Source: Toxorhynchites rutilus septentrionalis (taxonomy: Eukaryota > Arthropoda > Insecta > Diptera > Culicidae). From it: a stretch of 64,000 nucleotides of DNA. The notes below the pieces were generated by a model. It saw nothing but the letters and a program-made list of their open reading frames with translations, was not told the origin of the DNA and ran no database searches. The stretch covers positions 101,925,303 to 101,989,302 of the forward strand of contig NC_073744.1 of NCBI RefSeq assembly GCF_029784135.1, given 5' to 3'. Positions within the stretch are counted from its first letter, which is position 1, and every line of letters starts with the position of its first letter. Both the position numbers and the translations under genes were made by a program. Shown here in pieces: positions 1-64,000 of the stretch.

Positions 1-829
1 CATTTTCTGCATGTTGAATTAATGCGATTGATTAGTAACTATCAAGAAACTATCAGTAACTATATTAGCAACTATTAATCGCATAAATTCAACATGAAAA
101 AAATGTTATGGCTGTGGTATGATATTGAATGTGTCCGGATTCAAAAGCATTACTGTAAAAAAGAGTTAACTCGACTGAAATTTTTTCGGTTCGGCCTGCA
201 AAAACGAAATTAAGAGCCCCCGCCGACTGCAGACTGACTTGTCGACCGATAGTTCGGTCGGCTTCTTAATCAGTACGGAGAAAAAAAGTCTGTAGTGTAC
301 ATCATAATGCATAGACGTAAGTATGAGCTTCCCCATCTCACATTCCAATAAGATTAATGGGTTTCCAAGTGGGCGCGCTACATACGGATACGAATGATTT
401 CAATAACCTGTTTTCGAAACTATCATTAAGCTATTGAAACAATTTTTCGACTCAATAAATAGCAATCATATAACTCTTGGACATTTTATCTTTTGTATGA
501 AATGATTATCATACTGTTCCGTTAATCCGAAGCAGAATGAATCACGCTTAAAGAAGGAATGGATTTTTTCTTGGAATTTAGTCAGCAGAAATAATGCCCT
601 TTCCCAACAATTAAAAACGACAAACGGTAAACAGTTTCATCAAAGTGATTTCTTCGATATGGGGATATATTCACTACATCATGTCATATATTTCATATTT
701 TTCATTATGAAATCCATATCCATGGCACCTATCGGTATCGAATTATCATCGACACCACGATTTTCGCTAAATGCTCCTTTCAGTTCGGCCTGTAAAAAAC
801 TTTTCTGAACTCTAATCCATCAAATTTGG

Positions 830-845
830 AGCCCTGAAAAGGGCC
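830..845 (-). promoter_or_regulatory. Histone mRNA 3' stem-loop (H3 pseudogene)
   Basis: The minus strand reads GGCCCTTTTCAGGGCT, matching the SLBP-binding hairpin of replication-dependent histone mRNAs: a 6-bp stem (the outermost pair is G-T), a TTTC loop and pairing AGGGCY. It lies about 20 bp beyond the decayed H3 stop. Confidence 0.85.
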
Positions 846-865
846 GTTGATTATATGCTAAGCTA

Positions 866-1236
866 ATATAGCACGCTCTCCTCGGATACGATGGGCCAGC
901 TGGATGTCCTTGGGCATGATGTGACGCGTTTTGCATGGATAGCACACAAATTTGTATCTTCGAATAAGCCTCCTGCAGCGTCATAGCCGCGGAACTTTGG
1001 AAGCGCAAGTCGGTTTTGAAGTCCTGAGCAATTCCACGAACCAAATGCTGCAAAGGTAGCTTGCGGATCAGCAATTCGGTCGACTTCTGATAGCGACGAA
1101 TTTCATGCGAAGTTCTCGGTCGATAGCGATGTGGCTTCTTCACGCTTCCTGCGGCTGATGCGCTTATCCGAGCTGCTTTCGTGGTGCCTTACCACCGAAA
1201 GACTAACGAGCTGTCTGCTTAGTCCCGATGAAACGA
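866..1236 (-). pseudogene. Histone H3 pseudogene (E1, unit 1, minus copy)
   Basis: Core nucleosomal histone H3, decayed. Reading the minus strand, the tail TKQTAR is followed by a stop at the K9 codon, then GGKAPRKQL (T11 changed to F). A short deletion removes most of LATKAARKS. KKPHRYRP, STELLIRKLP and AQDFKTDLRFQSSA are recognisable, then a shift garbles the C-terminal part, although GERA-like sequence remains. The initiator ATG is lost. A canonical histone 3' stem-loop follows at 830-845. It faces away from a second H3 copy at 1459-1835. It cannot encode H3. Confidence 0.9.
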
Positions 1237-1458
1237 GTCCTCACGGTGCGAGAGTAGAGTAAGGAATGAACGAAAGCAAGGGAAGTGTCATTTTATAAAA
1301 CATAAAAGAATCGAATGTAAACCCCACCCTCTTTATTGTATAAGCTTACTGTATACTCACGAATATAATAAGGGTGGGATTTAGATTCTATACTTTTATG
1401 GTTTATAAAATGACGCTTCCTTTGCTTTCGTTCATTTCTTACTCTACTCTCACACCGT

Positions 1459-1835
1459 GAGGACTCGAGCTCGTTAGTCTTTCGCAGACAGCTCGTTAGT
1501 CATTCGGTGGTAAGGCACACGAAGTCAGCTCGGATAAGCGCACCAGTAGCAGGATAGGTGGAGAAGCCACATCGCTATCGACCGGGAACTTTGCGTGAAA
1601 TTCATCGCTATCGGAAGTCGACCGAATTGCTGATCCGAAAGCTACCTTTGCAGCATTTGGTTCGTGGAATTGCTCAGGACTTCAAAACCGACTTGCGCTT
1701 CCAAAGTTCCGCGGCTATGACGCTGCAGGAGGCTTGTTCGAAGATACCAATTTGTGTGCTATCCATGCAAAACGCGTCACATCATGCCCAAGGACATCCA
1801 GCTGGCCCATCGTATCCGAGGAGAGCGTGCTATTA
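1459..1835 (+). pseudogene. Histone H3 pseudogene (E1, unit 1, plus copy)
   Basis: Second H3 remnant, in divergent orientation to the minus copy and sharing its roughly 220-bp upstream region (an inverted repeat centred near 1345). Recognisable blocks are KAHE-like debris of KAPRKQL, then KPHRYRPGT, STELLIRKLP, AQDFKTDLRFQSSA, and a frameshifted tail ending in GERA-like sequence. Histone clusters normally pair H3 with H4. Here both arms are H3, which suggests an inverted duplication inside the element rather than a retained gene pair. The start codon is missing and frameshifts are present. Confidence 0.9.
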
Positions 1836-1853
1836 GCTTAGCATATAATCAAC

Positions 1854-1869
1854 GGCCCTTTTCAGGGCT
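1854..1869 (+). promoter_or_regulatory. Histone mRNA 3' stem-loop (H3 pseudogene)
   Basis: GGCCCTTTTCAGGGCT directly downstream of the plus-strand H3 pseudogene. It has a 6-bp stem and TTTC loop, as in functional histone 3' ends. No clear purine-rich downstream element is seen. Confidence 0.85.
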
Positions 1870-2610
1870 CCAAATTTGATGGATTAGAGTACAGAAAAGT
1901 TTTTTACAGGCCGAACTGAAAGGAGCATTTAGCGAAAATCGTGGTTTCGAAATAATTCGTTACCGATAATCTCTTTCTGGCAAAACGATGTGGTATGAAT
2001 CACATTATTTGAATGATAGAATGAAGAAGTTTTCTGCCAATTTCCTTCAACCTCCAAACGTATCTTTCTCCCATTTGTCGTTTTCGCGTTCGCTAATCCT
2101 TTCTCACAACACCCATTTCTAGTTTGAGAAATTGTTGAGTAAACATTGTTTGCCAGTGCGCGTAGAGTGGGAATTCCTAAAGATTCATTGCACCTCTAAT
2201 AAATTGCCGAAAGACGTGGTCTTACGTTGATCGCACTTGATTGAAAAAATCCAAAACGAAATGTATTTGGTCGCAGCATTGTATGAGTAGAAAGCAAATA
2301 ATCGCTCGAAAATGACTTGATTTTCGCGATGTGAAACATTTTCCGTTTTTCATGTTATGCATCCAATATTGGATACGAAAATTTCCCCTGATGGGGAAAA
2401 AAATATTCAGAAGCTTTCCTGTTAATTGCGATTGATTGAAAAATAACAAAACCAAATGTATTTGGTCACAGTGTTATATGGATAGAAAACATTAAAATAA
2501 ACTATTTCGCATGAATGTATTTTTCAATTCCCAGGGGAACTGGCAGATTATTTTTCAGCAACGATGATAGCAACGAGAATTCCGCGCGTGTATGTGTGTG
2601 TGTGTGTGTG

Positions 2611-62326: not shown

Positions 62327-62544
62327 ATGTCTGGACATGGTAAAGGAGGAAAAGTGAAGGGAAAGACGAAATCCCGCTCGAACCGTGTTGATCTGGAGTT
62401 CCCCGCAAGGGTAACTAGGCCGAGCGCGTTAGTACCAGTGCACCAGTCCACCTAGACGGCGTTATATAGTTTCGGCCGCCGAAGTGATCGAGTTAGCTGG
62501 CAAAGCTGCTCGCGACGATAAGAAAACCCGCATTCGGAACAGAA
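62327..62544 (+). pseudogene. Histone H2A pseudogene 1 (E7)
   Basis: Identical in the regions read to the E4 copy at 45455-45672: MSGHGKGGKVKGKTKSRSNR, the same deletion after LEFP, the same stop in KGN*AERV, and AAEVIELAGKAARDDKKTRI in a shifted frame. Confidence 0.93.
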
Positions 62545-62769
62545 CACATTCGATTCGGTGGACATCAAGACAACAGGCAGTTGCAGCGAGTGGCGAGTGG
62601 CAAACGCAATCGCAAAACGGCATCAGGTAGCAGAAGAAAAAAGTTTGTTCTTTATACAAACTGCTTTGGTGGCAAATCCAGAACAAGGCGGCATCGAGGG
62701 CGTTCGAAATGGTTTTTTTCAAAACCACGAGTACTAAGTTTTCTAAATTGGAACCATTCCATAAAACAA

Positions 62770-62785
62770 GGCGTTTTTCAGGGCC
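62770..62785 (+). promoter_or_regulatory. Histone mRNA 3' stem-loop (E7, first)
   Basis: GGCGTTTTTCAGGGCC, identical to E4 45898-45913. Confidence 0.65.
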
Positions 62786-63043
62786 ATTAAACCTTCCAAA
62801 AAAGAGTTTAGGAAATACAGTTCAATGCTTTCTAAAACATTATCCAAAATAATAATAAAACACAAATTGATTTTTTCATAATTTGTTTGCCAGGATATGA
62901 TGAGTATGTGAATTTGGCAGTTGTTCTGAGCTTATTGATTTTCACCAATTCTTAAATTGCGCTAGAGTATAAAACACGCGGACCCCAAAAAAATATCTTA
63001 TTTTCTTTCAAACCGTAAACCCGTGTGGTTGTACGGCATCGGC

Positions 63044-63272
63044 ATCGTGGACGTAACAAAGGAGGACAAGTTAAGGGAAAGGCAAAGTCTCAGATCTCCA
63101 ATTCCCTGTTGGCCGCATTCACTGATTGCTCCACAAGGGTAACTAGGCCGAACGGATTGGTGCCGGAGCACCAGTATACCTAACAGCGATTATAGAGTTT
63201 CGGCCGTCGGAGTGCTCGAGTTGGCTTGCAAAGATGCTCACGACAATCAGAAAACACGCATCAAGAACAGAG
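63044..63272 (+). pseudogene. Histone H2A pseudogene 2 (E7)
   Basis: Identical in the regions read to E4 46172-46400, including the lost ATG, RGRNKGGQVKGKAKS and the stop before AERIGAGAPVYL. TATA box at 62967-62981. Confidence 0.9.
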
Positions 63273-63479
63273 CAGCTTCGGTTCGGCAAGGCAACAATTA
63301 GTTTCAGTGAGTGGCAAAGTCGCATTAAATGTAATTTACTGAACAATATGTCACAAGCTGGATGGGAAGAAATTTTCCAACTGTGAAAGCTGTGGCGAGT
63401 GGCAAACGCAATAGCTAAACAGGAAGGTTTAACCGAACAAGATGGGAATATCGAGTGATAACAAAAACACAACACCAAA

Positions 63480-63495
63480 GGTTCTTTTCAGAACC
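63480..63495 (+). promoter_or_regulatory. Histone-type 3' stem-loop (E7, downstream)
   Basis: GGTTCTTTTCAGAACC with ATAAAGAG downstream. Confidence 0.8.
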
Positions 63496-64000
63496 ATCAA
63501 CATATTCATAAAGAGTAAACAGTAAACTAATCCATTTTTCAGGTAGATAGGTGGGTATTCACGTAGGAGAAGAAAATAAAACAATATATTTAAAATATAT
63601 ATTTAACAAAAGCTGTTCCCTTTGTATAGTCCTACGTCACTCCGGTTATGTCCCCGACATTACCCACCCGTCTTTTTGTCTTACATCTATGTTAGTAATA
63701 TGTAACCGATTACTCGCGGTTGGCTCGAGGTTAGTATTACAAAGATTCTCATAATTGGGATGTTGCAGTTTCCAGTACTCTCTGTTTGTGTGGCCGACAC
63801 GGGATACTTCCTATTGGGGTGCAACTGACCATTAATCAGCGACGCCCCCCTAGTCTGTACCTCATATTAATCGTGGTGCATCTCTCTTGACTCGAGGAAT
63901 CCAGGGTAGAATGGTCACTGGGCGGGATTTTATATTATAATAGTAATTATTTGTGGAACAAACAGGAAACGCGTCGACAAAAGTTTAAGTGAGTGTCAGC

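Follow-up and report, generated by a model that had tools for sequence, protein, structure and literature searches.

Non-autonomous Helentrons very probably carry H2A and H3 remnants through the genome of Toxorhynchites rutilus septentrionalis, and a histone stem-loop lies behind transposase genes that share their 3′ ends

We analysed a stretch of 64,000 nucleotides from the mosquito Toxorhynchites rutilus septentrionalis (contig NC_073744.1, positions 101,925,303 to 101,989,302; hereafter the window) and the mobile elements in it that carry pieces of histone genes, and conclude that these are very probably non-autonomous Helentrons (HINEs) of the Helitron2 group, which spread by a rolling circle. 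The original prediction, made from the letters of the window, had proposed non-autonomous mobile elements with histone pieces, and dispersed copies possessing both ends bear this out. The phenomenon itself is not new, as a paper of 2014 described a Culex Helentron that had captured histone genes; what this analysis adds is the scale, an H2A cargo, and transposase genes with open frames that are followed by the 3′ ends of the window's families.

The common terminal sequences first noticed in the window are confirmed, with seven exact copies of the 16-base palindromic end GACGTAGTCCTACGTC and five of the other end, GGTGGGTAATG. Allowing up to three mismatches adds two variant 5′ ends, at 49097 and 57184 (matches at this threshold at 2213, 4672, 9849 and 53789 were omitted as internal or as lacking the T-run and the body of the end). 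The end sequences first proposed are exact, while the borders of elements E1 to E8 had to be redrawn: E3 and E4 have a 3′ end type of their own, E1 and E2 form a tandem, E7 is nested in an element of a further family, D, and there is an extra element, C. The features, in window coordinates, are as follows.

614 to 3072, minus strand: E1, family-B HINE unit, first unit of the tandem, 5′ hairpin end at 3072, two divergent H3 remnants
870 to 1223, minus strand: H3 remnant of E1 with stops and frameshifts; weak stem-loop match at 805-850
1519 to 1831, plus strand: H3 remnant of E1; weak stem-loop match at 1849-1894
3073 to 5531, minus strand: E2, second unit of the tandem, family B; H3 remnants at 3329-3682 (minus) and 3978-4290 (plus)
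6779 to 10685, minus strand: E3, complete family-B HINE, both ends present, exact pair of inverted repeats (ATIRs, see below)
8914 to 9263, plus strand: H3 remnant of E3; weak stem-loop match (18.8 bits) at 9281-9326
15714 to 16304, plus strand: E5, 3′ part of a family-A-like element, with family-A 3′ end
36326 to 39384, minus strand: E4, family-B HINE, both ends present
44741 to 46800, plus strand: E6, complete family-A HINE, 2060 bp
45455 to 45671, plus strand: H2A remnant of E6, copy 1; stem-loop 1 at 45834-45879
46177 to 46399, plus strand: H2A remnant of E6, copy 2
46603 to 46647, plus strand: histone 3′ stem-loop of E6 (RF00032, 41 bits)
48237 to 49112, minus strand: family-C HINE with a minisatellite of about 94 bp; ATIR pair GACGTGGGAC / GTCCCACGTC, changed on both sides
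57184 to 61435, plus strand: family-D HINE, ATIR pair GACGTAGAAC / GTTCTACGTC, interrupted by E7
57272 to 60023, plus strand: E7, family-A HINE nested in D; H2A remnants at 57791-58022 and 59122-59243
61613 to 63672, plus strand: E8, family-A HINE, 99.95% identical to E6; H2A remnants at 62327-62543 and 63049-63271, stem-loop at 63475-63519

In element orientation, the 5′ end is TTTT followed by the palindrome GACGTAGGACTACGTC, its opening letters being GACGTAGGAC, and the 3′ end consists, in this order, of GTCCTACGTC (the exact reverse complement of the first ten bases), a hairpin, the terminus and a T-run. The hairpin is GGTTATGTC-CCC-GACATTACC in family A (E6 to E8), GGTTATACC-ATA-GATATAACC in family B (E3, E4), GGTTATATC-ATA-GATATAACC in family C and GGTCGTATC-TTG-GACACAACC in family D; counted by eye, eight, eight, nine and seven of its nine pairs, respectively, are standard, as are eight of nine in the D-like copies L067 and L079. 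The 3′ copy of the asymmetrical terminal inverted repeat (ATIR) lies 34-39 bases from the end and matches the first ten bases exactly in all seven two-ended elements of the window, because in families C and D, where the repeat differs from that of A and B, both of its copies have changed jointly. These ends are not those of canonical Helitrons (Helitron1), with 5′-TC, CTRR-3′ and insertion between A and T, as they read GACG...CGTC, ...CCTG, and ...CCCA or ...TATAA and lie in T-runs; nor are they symmetrical terminal inverted repeats, GACG being terminal on both sides in family A only and the 10-base repeat being offset (the criteria applied for Helitron2 are those of Bao and Jurka 2013, PMC3627910, with which PMC5148889 agrees). 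The 3′ border of the family-D element, in a T-run, is precise to a few bases, and an uninterrupted D copy lies in locus L019. The tandem E1/E2 (614-5531) runs head to tail with TTTT alone between its units, and E1 ends at CCGTTTGTCG followed by TTTT; it is possible that rolling-circle copying terminated here at another T-run, and equally possible that this is a plain tandem duplication.

The 902.6-Mb assembly, whose contigs C1, C2 and C3 are three chromosomes, was searched with the first 300 bases of E6; from 1152 first-look candidates the best 40 were scored, and these are 98-100% identical and lie on C1, C2 and C3. Two of them are E6 and E8, and among the other 38, which were fetched, 31 copies on three chromosomes show both ends, contrary to the outside copies without shared ends that the original prediction had set as its counter-case. 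With E6 to E8 added, the 5′ end is present in 41 of 41 copies (by selection) and the 3′ end in 34 of 41 within the fetched stretch. Flanks, compared over 22 bases, are mostly unrelated; similar ones occur on the 5′ side of L011 and L042 and on the 3′ side of L015 and L045 and of L009 and L027, as would be expected from insertion into repeats or from later duplication. Nineteen near-full-length copies of family A differ from their consensus at only 7-30 positions over about 2060 bases, and a recent spread of this family is suggested. The 5′ flank of L027, a family-A copy, is the start of another copy's stem-loop 1 (...GAAATGGTTTT), and L027 seems to be inserted in that T-run.

TTTT precedes 40 of the 41 5′ ends and follows 32 of the 34 3′ ends (control positions, 164 of 6800). 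Beyond the Ts no duplication is seen, and the shortest T-runs, if the two degenerate copies L016 and L044 are set aside, have four Ts on the left and five on the right. The empty sites previously reported were recovered, all three paralogous: one for E7 (in L019), one for E8 (window 53361-53480, minus strand) and one for the common site of E4 and E6 (near window 41732), which lies in a locally triplicated repeat, so that E4 and E6 should not be counted as two clearly independent insertions. For E7 and E8, TTTTT in the empty site corresponds to TTTT-element-TTTTT in the filled one, which would fit both insertion between TTTT and T of an element with four terminal Ts and duplication of TTTT. A DNA transposon of the cut-and-paste type, its short inverted ends being GACG...CGTC and its 4-bp target duplication TTTT, close to the mechanism first proposed, would draw on these four additional Ts and on the inverted outermost four bases of family A, yet it is very unlikely: the inverted repeats are asymmetric, one terminal and the other 34-39 bases in, and covary exactly; a palindrome forms one end, a hairpin the other; E1 and E2 stand in a head-to-tail tandem; and the Helentron-type transposase genes of the genome are followed by the same termini. 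Asymmetric ends, no duplication past the T-runs, and an architecture that fits Helitron2/Helentron (PMC3627910, PMC4067079) led us to give up the cut-and-paste proposal.

The autonomous partner that the original prediction had suggested looking for is probably represented by open-frame transposase genes with family-A and family-B 3′ ends, at loci C2:6.600-6.608 Mb and C2:320.568-320.577 Mb. The Rep domain PF14214 gave 132 matches among the best 150 scored of 1313 candidates, and Rep-bearing open frames reach 1674 codons (two places), 1564 codons (two places) and 1169 codons (two places; a different lineage). On the 3′ side of the 1674-codon frame of L077, the endonuclease end and the stop are followed, about 620 bases on, by a complete family-A terminus, whose last 216-224 bases are 96-97% identical to E6 to E8; conversely, window positions 46590-46807, at the end of E6, are 97% identical to the end of the 3′ untranslated region (UTR) of the family-A autonomous element. 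The 1564-codon frame of L078 ends on its 3′ side in a family-B terminus (83% identity to E3 over 132 bases, 84% to E4 over 123), and one copy of a third group, L079, has on its 3′ side the related terminus ATCCTACGTC...GGTCGTGTC-TCA-GACACAACC. Between families A and B the Rep proteins have 66% identity across 875 residues. A homologue, P0157, with 50% identity, comes from Galendromus occidentalis, which we take to be another name of the mite whose Helentrons Thomas et al. described. The 1674- and 1564-codon frames end in the endonuclease motif HRPILS/HRPMLS, and this C-terminus was found at 16 places; the homologue P0123 carries the endonuclease PF03372, and the helicase was seen in homologues only. 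An endonuclease fused to a Rep-helicase is the hallmark of Helentrons (PMC4067079, PMC5148889), and we consider that the transposase-bearing elements probably move the histone-carrying ones. Rep relics near element ends in L065, L067, L074 and L076 lie outside the element borders and were not taken as partners. No relative turned up when viral contigs were scanned with the Rep protein.

The histone cargo was located by tblastn with histone queries. E6, E7 and E8 each hold two H2A remnants, while H3 remnants number two in E1, where they are divergent, two in E2 and one in E3, so that the histone-bearing elements first counted as five are six; all are broken by stops and frameshifts, and Pfam recognises a core histone in two H3 stretches. 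The H1-like remnant formerly assigned to E1 to E3 finds no counterpart: with a Drosophila H1 and a generic globular domain as queries, the best tblastn E values are 3.3 and above, and no Pfam linker-histone match occurs in ten open stretches of the window, a part of the frames having been scanned. E4 has neither a histone remnant (tblastn, E≤1) nor a stem-loop match (E≤5). Eleven matches to the histone 3′ stem-loop (RF00032) lie downstream of histone remnants, in keeping with the stem-loops noted originally; two reach the Rfam gathering score and nine are weaker (E up to 2.3), the matches of E7 at 58251-58296 and 59827-59872 being under that score, and 21 further Rfam matches to unrelated families look like chance. 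E5 has a stem-loop-like GGTTCTTTCCAGAACC at 16111-16126, seen by eye and without an RF00032 match. Over the genome, H2A remnants are present in all 34 complete family-A copies (31 outside and three in the window), with two or more in 32 of them. Both E6 copies have a TAG in the KGNY motif and a deletion after KTRI, judged against the usual H2A sequence; the H3 remnants, too, have missing residues in common. A tree of 32 copy-1 and 33 copy-2 pieces places the copy-1 remnants in one clade (support 0.976). Together, the shared H2A defects and this clade point to one H2A capture and one internal duplication before amplification. No sign of constraint on the H2A pieces is seen in the 19 near-full-length copies, as their nucleotide diversity (0.016-0.023) is not below that of other segments (0.000-0.024). 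Two of the 34 family-A copies (among L009-L046) have one pair of stem-loop 1 changed on both sides (GTTTTT..AAAAAC, GATTTT..AAAATC), possibly through copying errors templated by the opposite arm.

The captured units contain TATA boxes, 5′ leaders, stem-loops and downstream sequence, and the TATA boxes and the sequence past the mRNA end argue for capture at the DNA level. Retroposed histone mRNAs, as processed pseudogenes or as short interspersed (SINE-like) elements using a long interspersed element (LINE), are therefore most improbable: T-rich targets and the LINE adjoining E5 would suit them, but the cargo extends both upstream of transcription and past the mRNA end, a poly(A) tail is absent, the LINE has its own target duplication of 10 bp (TAACATTGAT) and was inserted separately, and no LINE in the window has a 3′ end equal to that of the element. 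With the E1 H3 remnant as query, the best 40 scored of 2726 candidates are 99-100% identical and lie on three chromosomes, these being matches to the remnant and not to element ends; H2A and H3 are thus dispersed, and not restricted to local segmental duplications, which the original prediction had named as the other outcome to look for. A genome-wide search for stem-loops scored the best 75 of 199,592 candidates, with the window's own two loops absent, and its list is therefore a sample. Eleven equal-score stem-loops on one strand, mostly 18-32 kb apart, at C2:101664142-101742788 and on C113 and C375, are probably a true histone cluster with unusually long spacing, a candidate on sequence grounds. 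Local segmental duplication of a histone cluster that later degraded, for which one might cite the closeness of several copies in the window, its tandem and inverted duplications and the common flank of a few outside copies, can hardly be credited at all, given same-border copies with mostly unrelated flanks and H3 remnants on three chromosomes, and given that for 56 of the 75 listed stem-loops the nearest other one on the list is over 150 kb away and that only 11 of the 75 lie in the candidate cluster.

Several points nevertheless weigh against the Helentron assignment and the history drawn from it. The 38 fetched copies are the best 5′-end matches, so that their 5′ ends are a selected set, and seven of them show no 3′ end in the fetched stretch. 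The three pairs with shared flanks mean that not every copy is proven to be an independent insertion, and targets made of Ts alone fit four element-terminal Ts and a 4-bp TTTT duplication alike. E1 and E2 have no standard 3′ end, although their tandem is compatible with a rolling-circle mechanism. The partnership with the autonomous elements rests on shared 3′ ends and gene orientation. The copy-2 H2A remnants are not monophyletic under the rooting used, and five short copy-1 pieces were omitted from the tree.

Taking these points into account, the ends, sites, dispersal, cargo and transposase frames make the following course highly probable. The Rep-helicase-endonuclease of an autonomous Helentron would nick the element and copy it by a rolling circle, the 5′ palindrome and its subterminal inverted copy setting the stop point and the 3′ hairpin marking the end, and the copy would insert between TTTT and T without a target duplication. 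An ancestral family-A element would have taken up an H2A unit as DNA, from the TATA box through the stem-loop and downstream element; this unit would have been duplicated internally and then amplified as a decaying passenger, and family B would have done likewise with H3. Many stem-loops and H2A or H3 fragments in such genomes should accordingly be annotated with care, being transposon cargo and not histone genes.

A histone stem-loop is also present between the stop codon and the element end, on the coding strand, in both autonomous families, and may there provide the transposase mRNA with its 3′ end. In family A it reads CCAAA-GGTTCT-TTTC-AGAACC-ACC with AAAGAG downstream (40.5 bits), and in family B GGTTCT-TTTT-AGGACC, with one G-T pair, and GAAAGAG (22.9 bits, under the gathering score). 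Aligning the two autonomous 3′ UTRs by BLASTN gives only two hits below E=0.01, the terminus (7e-6) and the stem-loop (3e-4), and none of 5000 dinucleotide shuffles of each UTR reaches the score of its loop, a score defined when the loops were already known. By identity (51-55% to the family-A query), six of the 16 endonuclease ends look family-B-like, and five of these six are followed on the same strand, at a distance of 168-297 bases, by a family-B stretch of 141 bases that contains the loop, the sixth lying outside the best 40 scored of 121 candidates for this stretch; the stretch is also found at 35 further listed places, its letters having been read for L078 alone.

This loop may have been inherited passively from a captured histone gene, without a role in the transposase mRNA, and to this reading we give somewhat more than even credence. 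Histone genes are frequent cargo of Helentrons here, and stem-loop 2 of the non-autonomous copies is not significantly conserved (one of 12 stem sites is variable, and 4992 of 20,000 random 12-site sets are equally or more invariant). AATAAA lies downstream of the family-A loop, which also speaks against an S-phase type of mRNA end, the family-B loop is under the Rfam threshold and has its G-T pair, and in the third family none is found in the 241 bases read, most of the UTR lying outside them. A leftover would be less expected to be one of only two alignable UTR stretches between families whose Rep proteins are 66% identical, to keep all six pairs (one of them G-T in family B) and AAAGAG in both, or to stand on the same strand behind at least five of six family-B-like endonuclease ends. 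The loop and downstream element, derived from a replication-dependent histone gene, might instead be a working part of the autonomous Helentron that forms the transposase mRNA 3′ end through SLBP and U7 and limits the transposase to S phase, a suggestion that we advance tentatively. If true, transposase would be confined to the phase that allows rolling-circle copying, the activity of the transposon might be linked with DNA replication, and the repeated pick-up of histones (H2A and H3 in Toxorhynchites, fragments of two histone genes in Culex) would be explained. The loop seems not to be needed in cis for mobility, since E4 has complete ends without a loop match. A scan of 19 of 30 Rep-bearing loci found two stem-loops only, both in neighbouring family-A ends, and our literature search, in which most subscription journals were not covered, found no paper joining the histone stem-loop to a transposable element.

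The window holds further repeats. On the 5′ side of E5 lies a full-length I-like LINE (11325-15713) with a 1228-aa open reading frame (ORF), inserted in E5 and flanked by the 10-bp target duplication (11315-11324 and 15714-15723); Pfam finds endonuclease, reverse transcriptase and RNase H in homologues of this ORF, and the nearest named relatives are mosquito I-11 elements. A 2-kb tandem duplication (14640-18653, 99.95% identity) covers the 3′ part of the LINE and the end of E5, which is thereby repeated at 17718-18308. At 25835-34259, a 711-bp direct repeat (99.9% identity) surrounds minus-strand gag/pol-like ORFs, perhaps a young long terminal repeat retroelement nested in older retroelement sequence. 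A perfect inverted repeat of 201 bases, with a 2-base gap between its arms, occupies 40726-41129 within a larger fold-back (39385-44740), and an open stretch of family D (60529-60885) resembles, by eye, a basic gag-like segment and has no Pfam match.

The closest known system is Helentron-Cq-32A/HINE-Cq-32A of Culex quinquefasciatus, eight copies of which carry pieces of two histone genes (Thomas et al. 2014, PMC4067079), so that the original prediction's supposition of a kind of family not yet described in mosquitoes does not hold. It resembles the present elements in its palindromic subterminal repeats, 3′ stem-loop, T-flanked insertion and occasional tandem repeats, and in captured histone fragments with stops and frameshifts that were amplified with the element; its fragments are given as "H4 superfamily (smart00428)" and H15, whereas Toxorhynchites has H2A (family A) and H3 (family B) and H1/H15 was not found, and the available text does not mention histone 3′ stem-loops (PMC4067079). 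The scale also differs, eight copies in Culex contrasting with the best 40 near-identical ones among 1152 candidates for family A and among 2726 for H3. What had been a single curiosity of Culex thus extends to other histones, another mosquito subfamily and a very high copy number. We take SM00428, for which the literature search gave no confirmation, to be the SMART model of H3; if so, the Culex fragment may match the family-B cargo. The elements share with Helitron2 the terminal 5′-ATIR hairpin, a subterminal 3′-ATIR upstream of a hairpin, compensatory ATIR changes (there between related Culex elements) and insertion between TTTT and T/C, but the 3′-ATIR lies 20-30 bases from the end there and 34-39 here, and the partner proteins here have the endonuclease of the Helentron branch (PMC3627910). 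DINE-1/INE-1 of Drosophila are likewise non-autonomous Helentrons with very high copy number and T-rich targets, for which the available account reports no histone cargo (PMC4067079). Finally, the family-A loop, at 40.5-41 bits and with its purine-rich AAAGAG, is like the 3′ end of a replication-dependent histone mRNA (RF00032), with the difference that it stands in the 3′ UTR of a transposase gene and in mobile elements and not in a histone cluster. Its place beside open-frame transposase genes raises the question whether a transposon has borrowed histone mRNA processing to couple its expression to DNA replication.

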